From contig CM046338.1 in assembly GCA_025403435.1 (NCBI GenBank), positions 17,545,316 to 17,609,315 of the forward strand: DNA of 64,000 nt. The letters are read 5' to 3'. The notes below the pieces were generated by a model. The model did not search any database and had not been told where the DNA came from. It was given only the letters and a program-made list of their open reading frames with translations. How positions within the stretch are numbered: position 1 is the first letter of the stretch; every line of letters starts with the position of its first letter. The DNA is from Artocarpus heterophyllus (lineage: Eukaryota; Streptophyta; Magnoliopsida; Rosales; Moraceae). Both the position numbers and the translations under genes were made by a program. Positions 13,535 to 22,521 of the stretch are shown here, piece by piece.

Positions 13535-15896
13535 TGTAACGCCCCTATATGGGGGTTAACAGTTTTTAATGAGATAAAATAAAAATAAATAATAAAAGTA
13601 AAACCTTAAAAATAAAATTTGCCCGGGACTTAAATGAAAACTCTCAACTCAAAAATAAAAATATAAACGATAAATAAACCACAGTTTTAATGTAGCACCT
13701 TAAATTTAATAATATAAACTGTTGTCATCATCATTTTAACCCTCAACACATTGTAATACAGTCACAGAAAGTAACAATTGATGCTTACATTATCATGAAG
13801 AACATTCTCAACAATTGAAGCAGTCCCAATGTAATATAGCTACATCACTTCCTCAACTATATTTCTCGTAGCCACCTCACACTTAGTGAGTCCTGAAAAG
13901 ATAAAAATATAAGGGTATGAGCAACACTATGCTCAGTAGAGAAAGCCATTACTCACCTTTAGGTTTTTATCATTACCACATTAAAACCTGCATGGTTAGT
14001 AAGTTACATCATATTCCAGATTATGAGGTTTATTATGATCACATCTTATGGATACCGTAGTTAATCATTACCAAGTGTCATAATTACACATTTATGCAAA
14101 TATTACCAATCATCATTGTTCCTAGGTATCCATGTTAAATAGAGTATCACTCAACTCATCGAAACCCAAATGGGCGCACTTGATCACCCTATAAACATTA
14201 CAAGGGTGTTCCGGTGAGGGGACATCAAGCCCCGAGTCCTCACCAAATCGATTCCTGTACAGTGTGTTCTGGGACTTTCAACCCAAGGAAGCGTCATCGC
14301 CTTCCCCCTATTTTACCTTTTAGGGTATTCATGCCCAAGGACGTAACCGTCGCCCTCTTCATGTCTCACAATTTCTCTATATTGAATCATTATCAATAGA
14401 GTTAGTTTTCCTAACCATGCTTCTCAATTTATAACATGTGTCAATTCATTATGTTCCTCGCCGTACAATACAAGACGAGTCCATGTCATAGTTTCATATG
14501 TGATAATCATATAATATCAGTTCAACATAGATATATATATATTGCGGCAAAACAATCAATTTTAATTCTATAAAAACCTCACAAAAGATGAGTAATAGAA
14601 TCCCTACCTTTCAAGCTTATCAACAGTCTCTTAATCCTGGAATCAATTAACGTTAGCTCCATACTCCCTTGATCCTAAGGCGTGCATAAGGACAATTAAA
14701 ACTAAAGCACAACATACAACTACATTCATAAATAAATCATGTGTAAACCTATCTTACTAGTATGCCATTAAAACTTTTATATAAATCTCTTTTGAATACC
14801 ACAGTAAACAATTTTTGTCTTAACACAATATAAAATGTGAACAAGTAATCTATATGTTTTAGTCCCTAATAAGATTCATCAATCACTTAGGATAATATTG
14901 GAAAGGTTGCAAGACATTAAAGAATTAGGTGGTGAGCAAAGATGGGTTCTTGGTTCAGGTTAGTAGTTGGTATACCATAACAAACTGGCAGATTTACTAG
15001 TTTCCAATACAAAAATTGAATAATTCTTAGAAATAAAATACAACTCCGATTTAGGTTTATGATAGCTCGTTAGAAAGCCTAGGATGCTACTTTTCAAATA
15101 TGCAAACCAATTCATAAAATTCATTTTAATTTAATCTTAGAATTTCAAGAAATAACCACTGCCCATAGAGGTATTACAAAGTTTAACAATATAAATTTTC
15201 TGTCTAGGGCATATACACTTAGACTTCATACATATGCTCCAAAATAGCAACAAACATATACTTAGGTTTAAGAACGCAAATTTGAATAATCCTTTAGTAT
15301 AAAAGAAAATTTATAAATGAAAGACTAAATTTGTTCATAAGATTCTAACCTCGGATTATGGTTAGTTGGAAGCTTGAAATGGCTTCAAAACAGGTTCCTT
15401 TACTTCGGTATGACTGAAATTCTTGCTCAAATGGAGGTGATGGTGGCTGATTTTTATGGCTGCCTTGAAGAAGTTCTCTAAGTATTTTGCTTCAGCAAAG
15501 AAATGAGAAGAAGAGTGTGGGAACCGTGGAAGAGAAAGGAAGAAAAGATGAAGTCTTTGAAGAGAAGTGATAGAAACAATTATAGAGGAGACATGTTGAA
15601 GCATGTCACGGAGGAAATAAAGAAAATGAGGGTCAAGAGTAGTTGGAAAAGATAACCTTATGTCTCATCTAAAGACTTTAACACACATAATGCCAATATG
15701 ACATTTTTGAGATTTATTAGAAGTTCTAAGACTTTTTAGTAAACATACTAAATAAATATAGGAGAATTTTAGAAAATTTTTAAAAAATAGATAAAAATAA
15801 ATATTATAAAATAAATTTAAATGAAGCAATTTTTTTTATACATTAAAAATTAATTTAATTACCTCAATACCCGTTAGGAGAATAACGGGTGTCACA
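13535..15896 (-). repeat. LTR, left copy (3' LTR in element orientation)
   Basis: 2,362 bp, with no difference from the right copy noticed in the parts compared. Both ends carry short hairpins: CCCCTATATGGGGG near 13542-13555, and CCCGTT...AACGGG near 15871-15890. The AG-rich segment at about 15480-15600 is pyrimidine-rich on the sense strand and could be a transcript leader. Confidence 0.95.
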
Positions 15897-15910
15897 GCTC
15901 TACCCCCCTT
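15897..15910 (-). other. Polypurine tract of the LOG-carrying element
   Basis: Minus-strand AAGGGGGGTAGAGC abuts the 3' LTR, as expected for the plus-strand primer of reverse transcription. Confidence 0.85.
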
Positions 15911-16851
15911 AAAGAAATTTCGTCCTCGAAATTTCAATTCTAGCAATACTAGTAAAAATTTTAATTCCATTATGATTCCAATTCCGAGTCTAAACCGTTA
16001 ATGTTGTTTGTCCTCCAAATTTAAGTTATCGTATCTCCACTTATTTACTTGCATAATAAATCTTACTCCTAAATCCCTCAATGAGAGTATTTCTGACAAG
16101 TTTCAACTTATAACACCGTATAATAGTCTAAGAATCTGATCAGGCATACATATTGACCATATCATGATTCCAGTCCTTTATTGTCCATGGACTGTGATTT
16201 ACAATCACATTTAAGGAGATTGCCAGAGAAATTTTATATACTTCATCTTTAGGTTCCTTTTCCTTTTTGAGTAAGGAAAAGTCAAATATATTTGATTTCA
16301 TACCTCAACTAATAAACTAAAACATAATCATAAAACATATATCACAAACACTTATATTCAAAACCATACATTAAACTTATTCATAGAGATATTAAACGGA
16401 ATCTCAGAGTTGCAAACATACCCGACATATTTTTCATTAAACAGCTATCCTCATAACACAAACATTCAATCCAAATAATATACTCATATTTCATATGGAA
16501 TATCCCCATAACTGACTCTGGTACTTCCACATAATATTAACAGAATATTACACATTACAAACATAATACGGATACGTTTCGAGAGTACAAGGCACTCCGT
16601 ATACCAGCTATCCATATCATGCATGCTTAGAGGATACAAAAACATCGATAAACAAAAGATCGGACCTTAAGAAGGATGCGTTTCGAGAGCATCAAGTACT
16701 CCGTATCCAGCCATCCCGGCATTAGGCTCAATGAATCTAAAAGATTGAACAACAACGTACCACAAGAAACACAGAATACAAGGCAAACGGTTATTCGTAA
16801 CACACGAAATACGGACACACATGCCTACATGCCAAAGATAAAACAAAAAGA
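15911..16851. other. Non-coding interior between the LOG-like ORF and the 3' LTR
   Basis: About 940 bp, AT-rich and without a convincing ORF. It includes a pair of imperfect direct repeats (16569-16612 and 16674-16716) sharing GTTTCGAGAG...ACTCCGTAT...CAGC.ATCC. Their role is unknown. Confidence 0.6.
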
Positions 16852-20140: not shown

Positions 20141-20152
20141 GCTCTGATACCA
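20141..20152 (-). other. Primer-binding site, tRNA-iMet type
   Basis: Minus-strand TGGTATCAGAGC, complementary to the 3' end of plant initiator-Met tRNA, 7 nt inside the 5' LTR. It fixes the element's orientation as minus. Confidence 0.92.
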
Positions 20153-20159
20153 AAAATTC

Positions 20160-22521
20160 TGTAACGCCCCTATATGGGGGTTAACAGTTTTTAATGAGAT
20201 AAAATAAAAATAAATAATAAAAGTAAAACCTTAAAAATAAAATTTGCCCGGGACTTAAATGAAAACTCTCAACTCAAAAATAAAAATATAAACGATAAAT
20301 AAACCACAGTTTTAATGTAGCACCTTAAATTTAATAATATAAACTGTTGTCATCATCATTTTAACCCTCAACACATTGTAATACAGTCACAGAAAGTAAC
20401 AATTGATGCTTACATTATCATGAAGAACATTCTCAACAATTGAAGCAGTCCCAATGTAATATAGCTACATCACTTCCTCAACTATATTTCTCGTAGCCAC
20501 CTCACACTTAGTGAGTCCTGAAAAGATAAAAATATAAGGGTATGAGCAACACTATGCTCAGTAGAGAAAGCCATTACTCACCTTTAGGTTTTTATCATTA
20601 CCACATTAAAACCTGCATGGTTAGTAAGTTACATCATATTCCAGATTATGAGGTTTATTATGATCACATCTTATGGATACCGTAGTTAATCATTACCAAG
20701 TGTCATAATTACACATTTATGCAAATATTACCAATCATCATTGTTCCTAGGTATCCATGTTAAATAGAGTATCACTCAACTCATCGAAACCCAAATGGGC
20801 GCACTTGATCACCCTATAAACATTACAAGGGTGTTCCGGTGAGGGGACATCAAGCCCCGAGTCCTCACCAAATCGATTCCTGTACAGTGTGTTCTGGGAC
20901 TTTCAACCCAAGGAAGCGTCATCGCCTTCCCCCTATTTTACCTTTTAGGGTATTCATGCCCAAGGACGTAACCGTCGCCCTCTTCATGTCTCACAATTTC
21001 TCTATATTGAATCATTATCAATAGAGTTAGTTTTCCTAACCATGCTTCTCAATTTATAACATGTGTCAATTCATTATGTTCCTCGCCGTACAATACAAGA
21101 CGAGTCCATGTCATAGTTTCATATGTGATAATCATATAATATCAGTTCAACATAGATATATATATATTGCGGCAAAACAATCAATTTTAATTCTATAAAA
21201 ACCTCACAAAAGATGAGTAATAGAATCCCTACCTTTCAAGCTTATCAACAGTCTCTTAATCCTGGAATCAATTAACGTTAGCTCCATACTCCCTTGATCC
21301 TAAGGCGTGCATAAGGACAATTAAAACTAAAGCACAACATACAACTACATTCATAAATAAATCATGTGTAAACCTATCTTACTAGTATGCCATTAAAACT
21401 TTTATATAAATCTCTTTTGAATACCACAGTAAACAATTTTTGTCTTAACACAATATAAAATGTGAACAAGTAATCTATATGTTTTAGTCCCTAATAAGAT
21501 TCATCAATCACTTAGGATAATATTGGAAAGGTTGCAAGACATTAAAGAATTAGGTGGTGAGCAAAGATGGGTTCTTGGTTCAGGTTAGTAGTTGGTATAC
21601 CATAACAAACTGGCAGATTTACTAGTTTCCAATACAAAAATTGAATAATTCTTAGAAATAAAATACAACTCCGATTTAGGTTTATGATAGCTCGTTAGAA
21701 AGCCTAGGATGCTACTTTTCAAATATGCAAACCAATTCATAAAATTCATTTTAATTTAATCTTAGAATTTCAAGAAATAACCACTGCCCATAGAGGTATT
21801 ACAAAGTTTAACAATATAAATTTTCTGTCTAGGGCATATACACTTAGACTTCATACATATGCTCCAAAATAGCAACAAACATATACTTAGGTTTAAGAAC
21901 GCAAATTTGAATAATCCTTTAGTATAAAAGAAAATTTATAAATGAAAGACTAAATTTGTTCATAAGATTCTAACCTCGGATTATGGTTAGTTGGAAGCTT
22001 GAAATGGCTTCAAAACAGGTTCCTTTACTTCGGTATGACTGAAATTCTTGCTCAAATGGAGGTGATGGTGGCTGATTTTTATGGCTGCCTTGAAGAAGTT
22101 CTCTAAGTATTTTGCTTCAGCAAAGAAATGAGAAGAAGAGTGTGGGAACCGTGGAAGAGAAAGGAAGAAAAGATGAAGTCTTTGAAGAGAAGTGATAGAA
22201 ACAATTATAGAGGAGACATGTTGAAGCATGTCACGGAGGAAATAAAGAAAATGAGGGTCAAGAGTAGTTGGAAAAGATAACCTTATGTCTCATCTAAAGA
22301 CTTTAACACACATAATGCCAATATGACATTTTTGAGATTTATTAGAAGTTCTAAGACTTTTTAGTAAACATACTAAATAAATATAGGAGAATTTTAGAAA
22401 ATTTTTAAAAAATAGATAAAAATAAATATTATAAAATAAATTTAAATGAAGCAATTTTTTTTATACATTAAAAATTAATTTAATTACCTCAATACCCGTT
22501 AGGAGAATAACGGGTGTCACA
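20160..22521 (-). repeat. LTR, right copy (5' LTR in element orientation)
   Basis: 2,362 bp, same length as the left LTR, with no difference noticed in the parts compared. Followed by the GAATG duplication. Confidence 0.95.

Follow-up and report, generated by a model that had tools for sequence, protein, structure and literature searches.

What would an LTR (long terminal repeat) retrotransposon without a recognisable gag-pol do with two genes of another kind, one for a LOG-like protein and one for a Cys-rich protein (CRP)? The question is raised by a stretch of Artocarpus heterophyllus DNA of 64,000 nucleotides (assembly GCA_025403435.1, contig CM046338.1, positions 17,545,316 to 17,609,315 of the forward strand), here called the window, in which positions 13535 to 22521 form a full LTR element whose sense strand is the minus strand. 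A first-pass annotation of the window had described a structurally complete element with no gag-pol and two intact sense open reading frames (ORFs), had called the Cys-rich gene virus-like, and had suggested that the pair, which may have travelled with the element for a long time, may favour its spread, for example by promoting division of the cells that express it, since LOG enzymes release active cytokinin, and by countering silencing. The answer that we favour, and hold to be reasonably probable, is that the element belongs to a very young, highly amplified non-autonomous LTR family that encodes a CRP and LOG pair instead of gag-pol.

In the sense direction the order is 5' LTR, primer site, leader, CRP, LOG, about 0.95 kb of further sequence, polypurine tract and 3' LTR, with the following features, given here by window position.

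13530 to 13534, no strand: left target-site duplication GAATG.
13535 to 15896, minus: 3' LTR in sense orientation, 2362 bp with TG...CA ends and 0/2362 mismatches to its partner.
15897 to 15910, minus: polypurine tract, AAGGGGGGTAGAGC in sense, adjoining the 3' LTR.
16852 to 17502, minus: LOG-like gene, 216 amino acids counted from the first ATG, matching PF03641 at E=1e-21.
17503 to 18145, minus: region between the CRP and LOG genes, 643 nt, with three copies of a 17-nt motif.
18146 to 18667, minus: CRP gene, a sense ORF of 173 amino acids.
18668 to 20139, minus: leader of about 1.5 kb from the primer site to the CRP gene, its ORFs of at least 70 amino acids having no Pfam match.
20140 to 20152, minus: primer binding site of the initiator tRNA-Met type, TGGTATCAGAGCC in sense.
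20160 to 22521, minus: 5' LTR in sense orientation, 2362 bp, identical to the other LTR.
22522 to 22526, no strand: right target-site duplication GAATG.

Paired TG...CA LTRs, a 5-bp target-site duplication, a primer site and a polypurine tract are the hallmarks of an LTR retrotransposon, and with 2362-bp identical LTRs and GAATG on both sides the element is structurally complete, as first described. The primer site reads GGCTCTGATACCA on the plus strand, 7 nt inside the LTR that starts at 20160, and we take it to pair with the 3' terminus of the initiator tRNA-Met of plants. Between the LTR end at 15896 and this second LTR lies an internal part of 4263 bp (15897 to 20159); a longer, GTG-started version of the LOG ORF extends to 17541. 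Eight stop-to-stop ORFs of at least 70 amino acids overlap positions 13535 to 20159, and among these only LOG scored above a Pfam cut-off, while CRP matched two viral nucleic-acid-binding protein (NABP) families below theirs and the six others had no Pfam match at E<=1. There was no Pfam match to gag or pol in these eight ORFs of the window copy, shorter or broken remnants not having been sought; gag-pol is thus absent at that sensitivity, as in a non-autonomous, helper-mobilised element, and the two intact sense ORFs noticed at first are the only recognisable genes. No antisense ORF with PF04195, the Retand TRP28 type, was found among ORFs of at least 70 amino acids, and neither an Rfam search of 13400 to 22700 nor a tRNA scan of the whole window gave a match.

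The genome (985 Mb in 334 contigs) contained at least 34 near-full-length places including the window, 34 being the number scored among 3853 candidates, and in the other 33 the internal part was 98-99% identical to that of the window. A protein search with the CRP gave 5815 candidates; the 150 scored, a lower bound, were all full-length and at least 98% identical, and in 149 of them the gene was free of stops. When degenerate DNA patterns, which count motif places and not proven elements, were used, the LOG-type motif GG[L/F]GT[L/F]EE occurred at 3289 places and its reversed control at 0; the pattern for a KYFPSLSQ-like stretch of the CRP occurred at 3382 places and its two controls at 1 each. 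The host-type LOG pattern GGYGT[L/F]EE was present at 11 places, making the element's motif roughly 300 times commoner than the host's in the same genome, with the proviso that host LOGs lacking Tyr at the pattern position would be missed by the host pattern or fall among the 3289. Pairing was counted on C1, the sole contig listed fully in both motif searches. There, 68 of the 79 LOG motifs had a CRP motif on their own strand 1476-1523 nt upstream (about 1.48 kb) and, conversely, 68 of the 86 CRP motifs were paired with a LOG motif; the control geometries, with the partner equally far downstream or on the opposite strand, gave 0 pairs on this contig. A CRP sequence was also found upstream of LOG at all nine LOG loci that we picked from the genome's PF03641 matches (at L046 its C-terminal part only). 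Some 3300 motif places, the pairing of 68/79 on C1 and the 34 near-full-length copies bear out the expectation that other copies carry both ORFs.

These copies are young. Among 21 examined for their ends (the window and L009-L028), both LTR ends were located in 18, of which 15 had a perfect 5-bp target-site duplication, AAAAA in two cases, the remaining three being L019, L023 and L028. All 18 shared an identical primer site, and 16 had the same 14 bases of polypurine tract, from which L010 and L013 each departed at a single base. LTR pairs could be compared in 17 of the 21 copies, L011, L025 and L026 being without both ends and L012 having a truncated LTR; nine pairs had no mismatch, and the most diverged differed at 7/1966 (L009) and 8/2360 (L016) positions. 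At the commonly used rate of 1.3e-8 substitutions per site per year, the insertions date to the last 0.15 million years or so. As the copies read diverge from the window by roughly 1-2%, several source lineages must, we infer, have been active.

A search with PF03641 gave at least 150 places above the cut-off (150 scored of 4846 candidates); each covered at least 121 of the 131 profile positions in one frame and scored 102.6-122.9 bits, compared with 78 for the window LOG, and 26 of the 150 had an internal stop. The nine loci read, L042-L050, fell into two lineages beside the window's family, which we call lineage A. Lineage B comprises L044, whose LOG and CRP are 62% and 75% identical to those of the window, and the more decayed L047; lineage C comprises the other seven, with 46-52% identity in LOG and 53-58% in CRP. 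The order of CRP and LOG was that of the window at all nine. For the window and L043, L044 and L045, the loci with both frames open, ratios of nonsynonymous to synonymous divergence (dN/dS, by Nei-Gojobori) were, for LOG, 0.28 between A and B, 0.29-0.31 between A and C and 0.21-0.23 between B and C, and, for CRP, 0.14, 0.10-0.11 and 0.16 respectively, indicating purifying selection on each of the two ORFs between lineages. In the intergenic DNA, A and C were 45-46% identical and B and C 49-50%; the shuffle baseline, from ten alignments of A with shuffled B, had a mean of 48% and a maximum of 52%. In both comparisons the frames had persisted while the neighbouring DNA was lost, which rules out a one-off capture or a chimera. 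Kept in diverged lineages in the same order and under purifying selection between them, the pair is a long-term traveller with the element, as had been suggested; the outcomes that would have spoken for abandoning that suggestion, namely no other copies, neutral ORFs or a one-off capture or assembly chimera, are contradicted by the evidence obtained.

In the region between the genes a 17-nt motif close to GTCAAAAGTTGTACAGT occurs on the minus strand at 17844-17860, 17786-17802 and 17732-17748 of the window copy, and there are one to four copies with up to 4 mismatches between the genes of L043, L044, L045 and L047. Shuffled sequences gave means of 0.03-0.09 and maxima of 1-2 for this motif, which was picked after the alignment had been viewed. 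It may serve LOG as a promoter or RNA signal.

Within the window's family, the CRP frame was intact in 33 of 34 copies (broken in L041) and the LOG frame in 32 (broken in L025 and L030). We compared the nonsynonymous variants observed in the 34 copies with those produced when the same base changes were placed at random, in 5000 placements. For CRP, 20 of 42 variants were nonsynonymous compared with 30.9 expected, a value that none of the 5000 placements reached, and among variants common to at least two copies the figures were 7 of 19 and 13.5 (P 0.0014). Three intergenic frames used as controls gave P 0.44-0.84 and five other frames of LOG P 0.12-0.89; the control frames of CRP gave P 0.61, 0.99, 0.95, 0.014 and 0.99, and we ascribe the low value, from an antisense frame, to overlap of that frame's codon positions with the true ones. 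The CRP is clearly constrained within the family. This test supersedes an earlier, cruder estimate from 21 copies, in which the mean pairwise pN/pS of LOG was 0.335, with 0.47-0.70 in its other frames, and that of CRP was 0.232, with 0.31-2.71 in its other frames. Nucleotide diversity in copies L009-L028 of this young family was 0.0085 in the intergenic stretch, 0.0087 in LOG, 0.0123 in CRP and 0.021 in the leader; the intergenic stretch being as little diverged as LOG, low diversity is by itself no marker of coding in 15897-20159.

Our explanation builds on direct observations, namely the anatomy, the motif copy number, the pairing, the intact frames in the copies read and the between-lineage selection on both proteins. 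We propose that proteins of a gag-pol helper would recognise the element's ends, primer site and packaging signals and mobilise it, and that CRP and LOG would be accessory proteins kept together through at least three diverged lineages. The CRP would be the main constrained product, binding element RNA or acting in the nucleus, and might, in the manner of viral CRPs, help the element to be expressed or packaged or to escape silencing. In the window's family the LOG-derived protein would be repurposed, or in the course of being lost: it retains the phosphate-binding loop and Glu121/Glu122 but neither the catalytic Arg nor the base/prenyl-binding side, and would most likely bind nucleotide, the CRP or the element's particle and not release cytokinin. 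The other two lineages, in whose intact proteins Arg99 is present, could still encode enzymes.

Several points weigh against this explanation. Constraint on LOG within the window's family was not significant in the 34 copies, with 31 of 46 variants nonsynonymous compared with 32.9 expected (P 0.32); the same held for variants common to at least two copies (7 of 13, 9.3 expected, P 0.13) and to at least three (3 of 8, 5.6 expected, P 0.06). LOG may thus be drifting in this family, and two young C copies compared with each other gave a dN/dS of 0.60 for LOG (0.26 for CRP). Selection was upheld on both ORFs between lineages (0.10-0.31) and on CRP within the family; on LOG within the family it was not significant. 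The between-lineage ratios were obtained with dS near saturation, and the nine loci had been chosen from the best-scoring, stop-free matches, with both frames open in just three of the nine (L043, L044 and L045). The intergenic DNA of A and B is still 61% identical, so that the contrast between frames and neighbouring DNA rests on lineage C. The B and C loci are known from the two genes alone, the LTR structure and the absence of gag-pol having been shown for the window's family. A junction-pattern search identified no helper, giving four candidate places only.

These four junctions bear on a different explanation, which we regard as possible but unlikely, that a larger autonomous Ty3/gypsy element has CRP and LOG as accessory genes, that the window's family arose from it by deletion, and that selection on the proteins reflects their service to the helper. 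At C11:18337629, C17:29089935, C21:33671532 and C27:29216845 the family's LTR end and primer site are followed by A or C instead of the family's next base; in three of the four the next base is A, the canonical one in the tRNA match. They may be helper candidates, and are the best lead to the helper, or may be point mutants of ordinary copies. Plant Ty3/gypsy elements with such a domain have been described: PMC9289625, citing Steinbauerova 2011, reports Ty3/gypsy consensus sequences with YgdH/LOG domains from two Citrus species and, when its filter is not applied, from Populus. Like the window element, those are plant LTR retrotransposons with a LOG-type domain; they were found via reverse transcriptase, which favours the accessory-gene explanation, and no CRP partner is mentioned in the section read, whereas the window element has no recognisable gag-pol and its LOG is paired with a virus-like CRP (a comparison by description, not sequence). 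Against it stand the copies that we read, which carry the pair without gag-pol, and the purifying selection on CRP inside the non-autonomous family itself.

We then considered what the CRP is. Its layout is a basic patch, KRRAR, followed by C-x2-C-x4-C-x3-C. The 20 window-family CRPs scanned (20 of 21 copies were aligned, L023 being left out and the window row lacking its first Met) all matched Carla_C4 (best E 0.0052) and Viral_NABP (best E 0.009) below cut-off, and 11 of the 20 also matched MCM_OB (best E 0.054). The sister-lineage scan covered L043, L044 and L045. Here the L044 CRP exceeded the Carla_C4 (PF01623) cut-off, with 23.6 against 20.9 bits and E 5.1e-5; the window and L043 were below it at 12.8 and 18.3 bits, and L045 had no reported match. 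With Viral_NABP (PF05515, cut-off 23), all four proteins were below at 16.2-20.9 bits, with E-values of 3.9e-4 for L044, 5.5e-4 for L043 and 0.0027 for L045. In carlavirus CRPs an arginine-rich patch stands beside a zinc-finger Cys cluster, CX2CX12CX4C (PMC10141686); the patch followed by a Cys cluster is thus shared with the carlavirus proteins (PF01623/PF05515; PMC10141686 and PMC8742542), and one lineage-B protein matches their profile above cut-off. Those described here differ in being borne by a retrotransposon, in their 173-184 amino acids and in their Cys spacing. From profile matches and layout, it seems quite likely that the CRP is a distant relative of the carlavirus CRPs; the virus-like label given to the gene at first is supported once L044 is included; the window copy taken alone stays below the cut-offs.

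It is doubtful, in our estimate, that the CRP is instead a chance Cys-rich protein without viral kinship, such as a degenerate Gag zinc knuckle or a KduD-like protein. The CRPs of the window, L043 and L045 are all under the Pfam cut-offs, and the carlavirus spacing is not reproduced, since the patch and CX2C are followed by x4-C-x3-C, which is atypical; both points tell against our placement of the protein. Pattern searches of viral contigs gave 10 and 16 pattern matches and no confirmed relative. PHROGs yielded weak matches for the window CRP (E 0.0097 and above) and none for L043 and L044. However, the leading matches of L043, L044 and L045 are to viral NABP families, one of them above cut-off, and Pfam scans of the window, the 20 family copies and L043-L045 gave no match to a zinc-knuckle family at E<=1. 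A resemblance of the window CRP to KduD dehydrogenase (E=6e-4, with weak PDB matches at 0.034 and 0.04) was rejected, no such match being reported for L043 and L044 at E<=0.1. A single-sequence structure model of the CRP was poor (pLDDT 45) and was not used for fold searches, and the same was true of LOG (pLDDT 43).

The window LOG matched PF03641 with 78 bits and TIGR00730 at E=5.8e-38, and its best PDB match was 2a33 (At2g37210, which we take to be AtLOG3) at E=6.5e-44, ahead of bacterial LOGs, which points to a plant source of the gene. Plant LOG genes contain introns; the element's has none. A LOG-pattern search of prokaryote genomes gave 37 pattern matches and no confirmed relative. Residue numbers in the element's LOG coincide with those of CgLOG. 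In that enzyme Arg99 and Glu122 have been proposed as catalytic residues, and activity was almost completely abolished by alanine substitutions at AMP-binding and catalytic residues, Ser19 excepted (PMC4979012).

By these residues it is unlikely that the LOG is a working cytokinin-activating enzyme through which the element promotes division of the cells expressing it and hence its own spread, as the first-pass annotation had suggested. The protein does belong to the plant-type LOG family, and the PGGxGTxxE motif, present as PGG-L-GT-L-EE, is retained together with Glu121/Glu122 in all four aligned proteins (window, L043, L044 and L045). In the window's family, however, Met96, His97, Arg99, Lys100, Glu125 and Trp129 are replaced by Ile, Pro, Asn, Phe, Ile and Gly, so that all five residues of the base/prenyl side (Met96, His97, Lys100, Glu125 and Trp129) are changed and Glu122 has lost its proposed catalytic partner; the GGGSxGLMG loop reads GGGSIKMMV. 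Asn99 was invariant in 19 of 19 family copies aligned (19 of 21, L023 and the stop-bearing L025 being left out). L043, L044 and L045 have both Arg99 and Glu122 and score 115-117 bits with PF03641; L043 and L045 also retain Met96 and Trp129, and among Met96, Arg99 and Trp129 L044 retains Arg99. His97, Lys100 and Glu125 are altered in all three lineages. The NCBI cytokinin-LOG equivalog model gave the four proteins 86-122 against a cut-off of 300, although this is a prokaryotic model that may not suit plant LOGs. Given these residue losses and the CgLOG alanine data, it is very improbable that the window-family LOG releases cytokinin, and that part of the first proposal is not supported; its relatives in lineages B and C may be enzymes.

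It is highly improbable that the genes were captured just once or are drifting pseudogenes multiplied as passengers: the near-neutral LOG variation within the family would suit this, but copy number and pairing, the retention of both genes in three lineages in the same order and at similar spacing, between-lineage dN/dS of 0.10-0.31 with A-C intergenic DNA randomised while the frames persist, and the constraint on CRP within the family led us to reject capture, chimera and neutral passenger alike.

A more far-reaching version of our proposal, to which we give little credence, is that the two proteins form a mobile anti-defence pair living off a helper, in which a viral-type nucleic-acid-binding CRP and a hormone-inactive, nucleotide-binding LOG would together shield the element's RNA or the cells expressing it. 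LOG may in that case capture or cleave a nucleotide signal or block the host LOG. If so, selection on such trans-acting proteins would need cis-preference or a benefit to the expressing cell.

Non-autonomous retrotransposons are usually viewed as non-coding parasites of helpers. Large retrotransposon derivatives (LARDs) have long LTRs and an internal region without gag-pol, depend on a helper and are described as lacking coding capacity; the window's family resembles them in its long LTRs, gag-pol-free interior and presumed need for a helper but differs in its two conserved ORFs under selection. The conserved accessory ORFs of Grande, RIRE2 and Retand TRP28 resemble the pair in having no assigned function and in being present in most family copies; they lie beside gag-pol, have other domains and are in many cases antisense (PMC7264820, PMC11963269), whereas here both genes are in sense and are the sole ones. 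An orchid Gypsy element with an AlkB m6A demethylase is likewise an LTR element with an RNA-acting domain of a type known in flexiviruses; it is large (25 kbp), was found via reverse transcriptase and carries a different protein (PMC9289625). Neither CRP and LOG as a pair nor an element carrying them without gag-pol came up in the open-licence literature searched; a LOG domain in plant retrotransposons is already known, and the gag-pol-free element with the pair is apparently unreported there. The only recognisable genes of the window's family encode two non-replicative proteins, one apparently of an RNA-virus type, and the pair is kept by selection between diverged lineages. With this family one can test how trans-acting genes are maintained by selection in an element unable to replicate alone, whether suppressors of the virus type serve plant transposons, and how a transposon recast a hormone enzyme.

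Some further structures were seen among the copies and around the element. The LTRs fall into two main length classes of about 2362 and 1970 bp (1910 in a tandem pair), which differ by a block of nearly 400 bp at LTR positions of about 1199-1575. L019 and L023 on contig C26 form a tandem LTR-internal-LTR-internal-LTR array with a shared LTR and CTAAT at both outer flanks; L028 (contig C23) is inserted within the LOG gene of another copy, and one LTR of L012 (contig C1) is internally deleted. Near the element in the window, positions 23552-23841 hold an inverted repeat with 101-nt arms, 77% complementary and 88 nt apart, that resembles a small DNA transposon or a hairpin. ORFs at 962-2850, 8298-9182 and 50657-53576 resemble, as judged by eye, host genes for a JmjC-type demethylase, an IDD-type zinc-finger factor and an ELM2/SANT protein, and by these resemblances the element sits in gene-bearing DNA.

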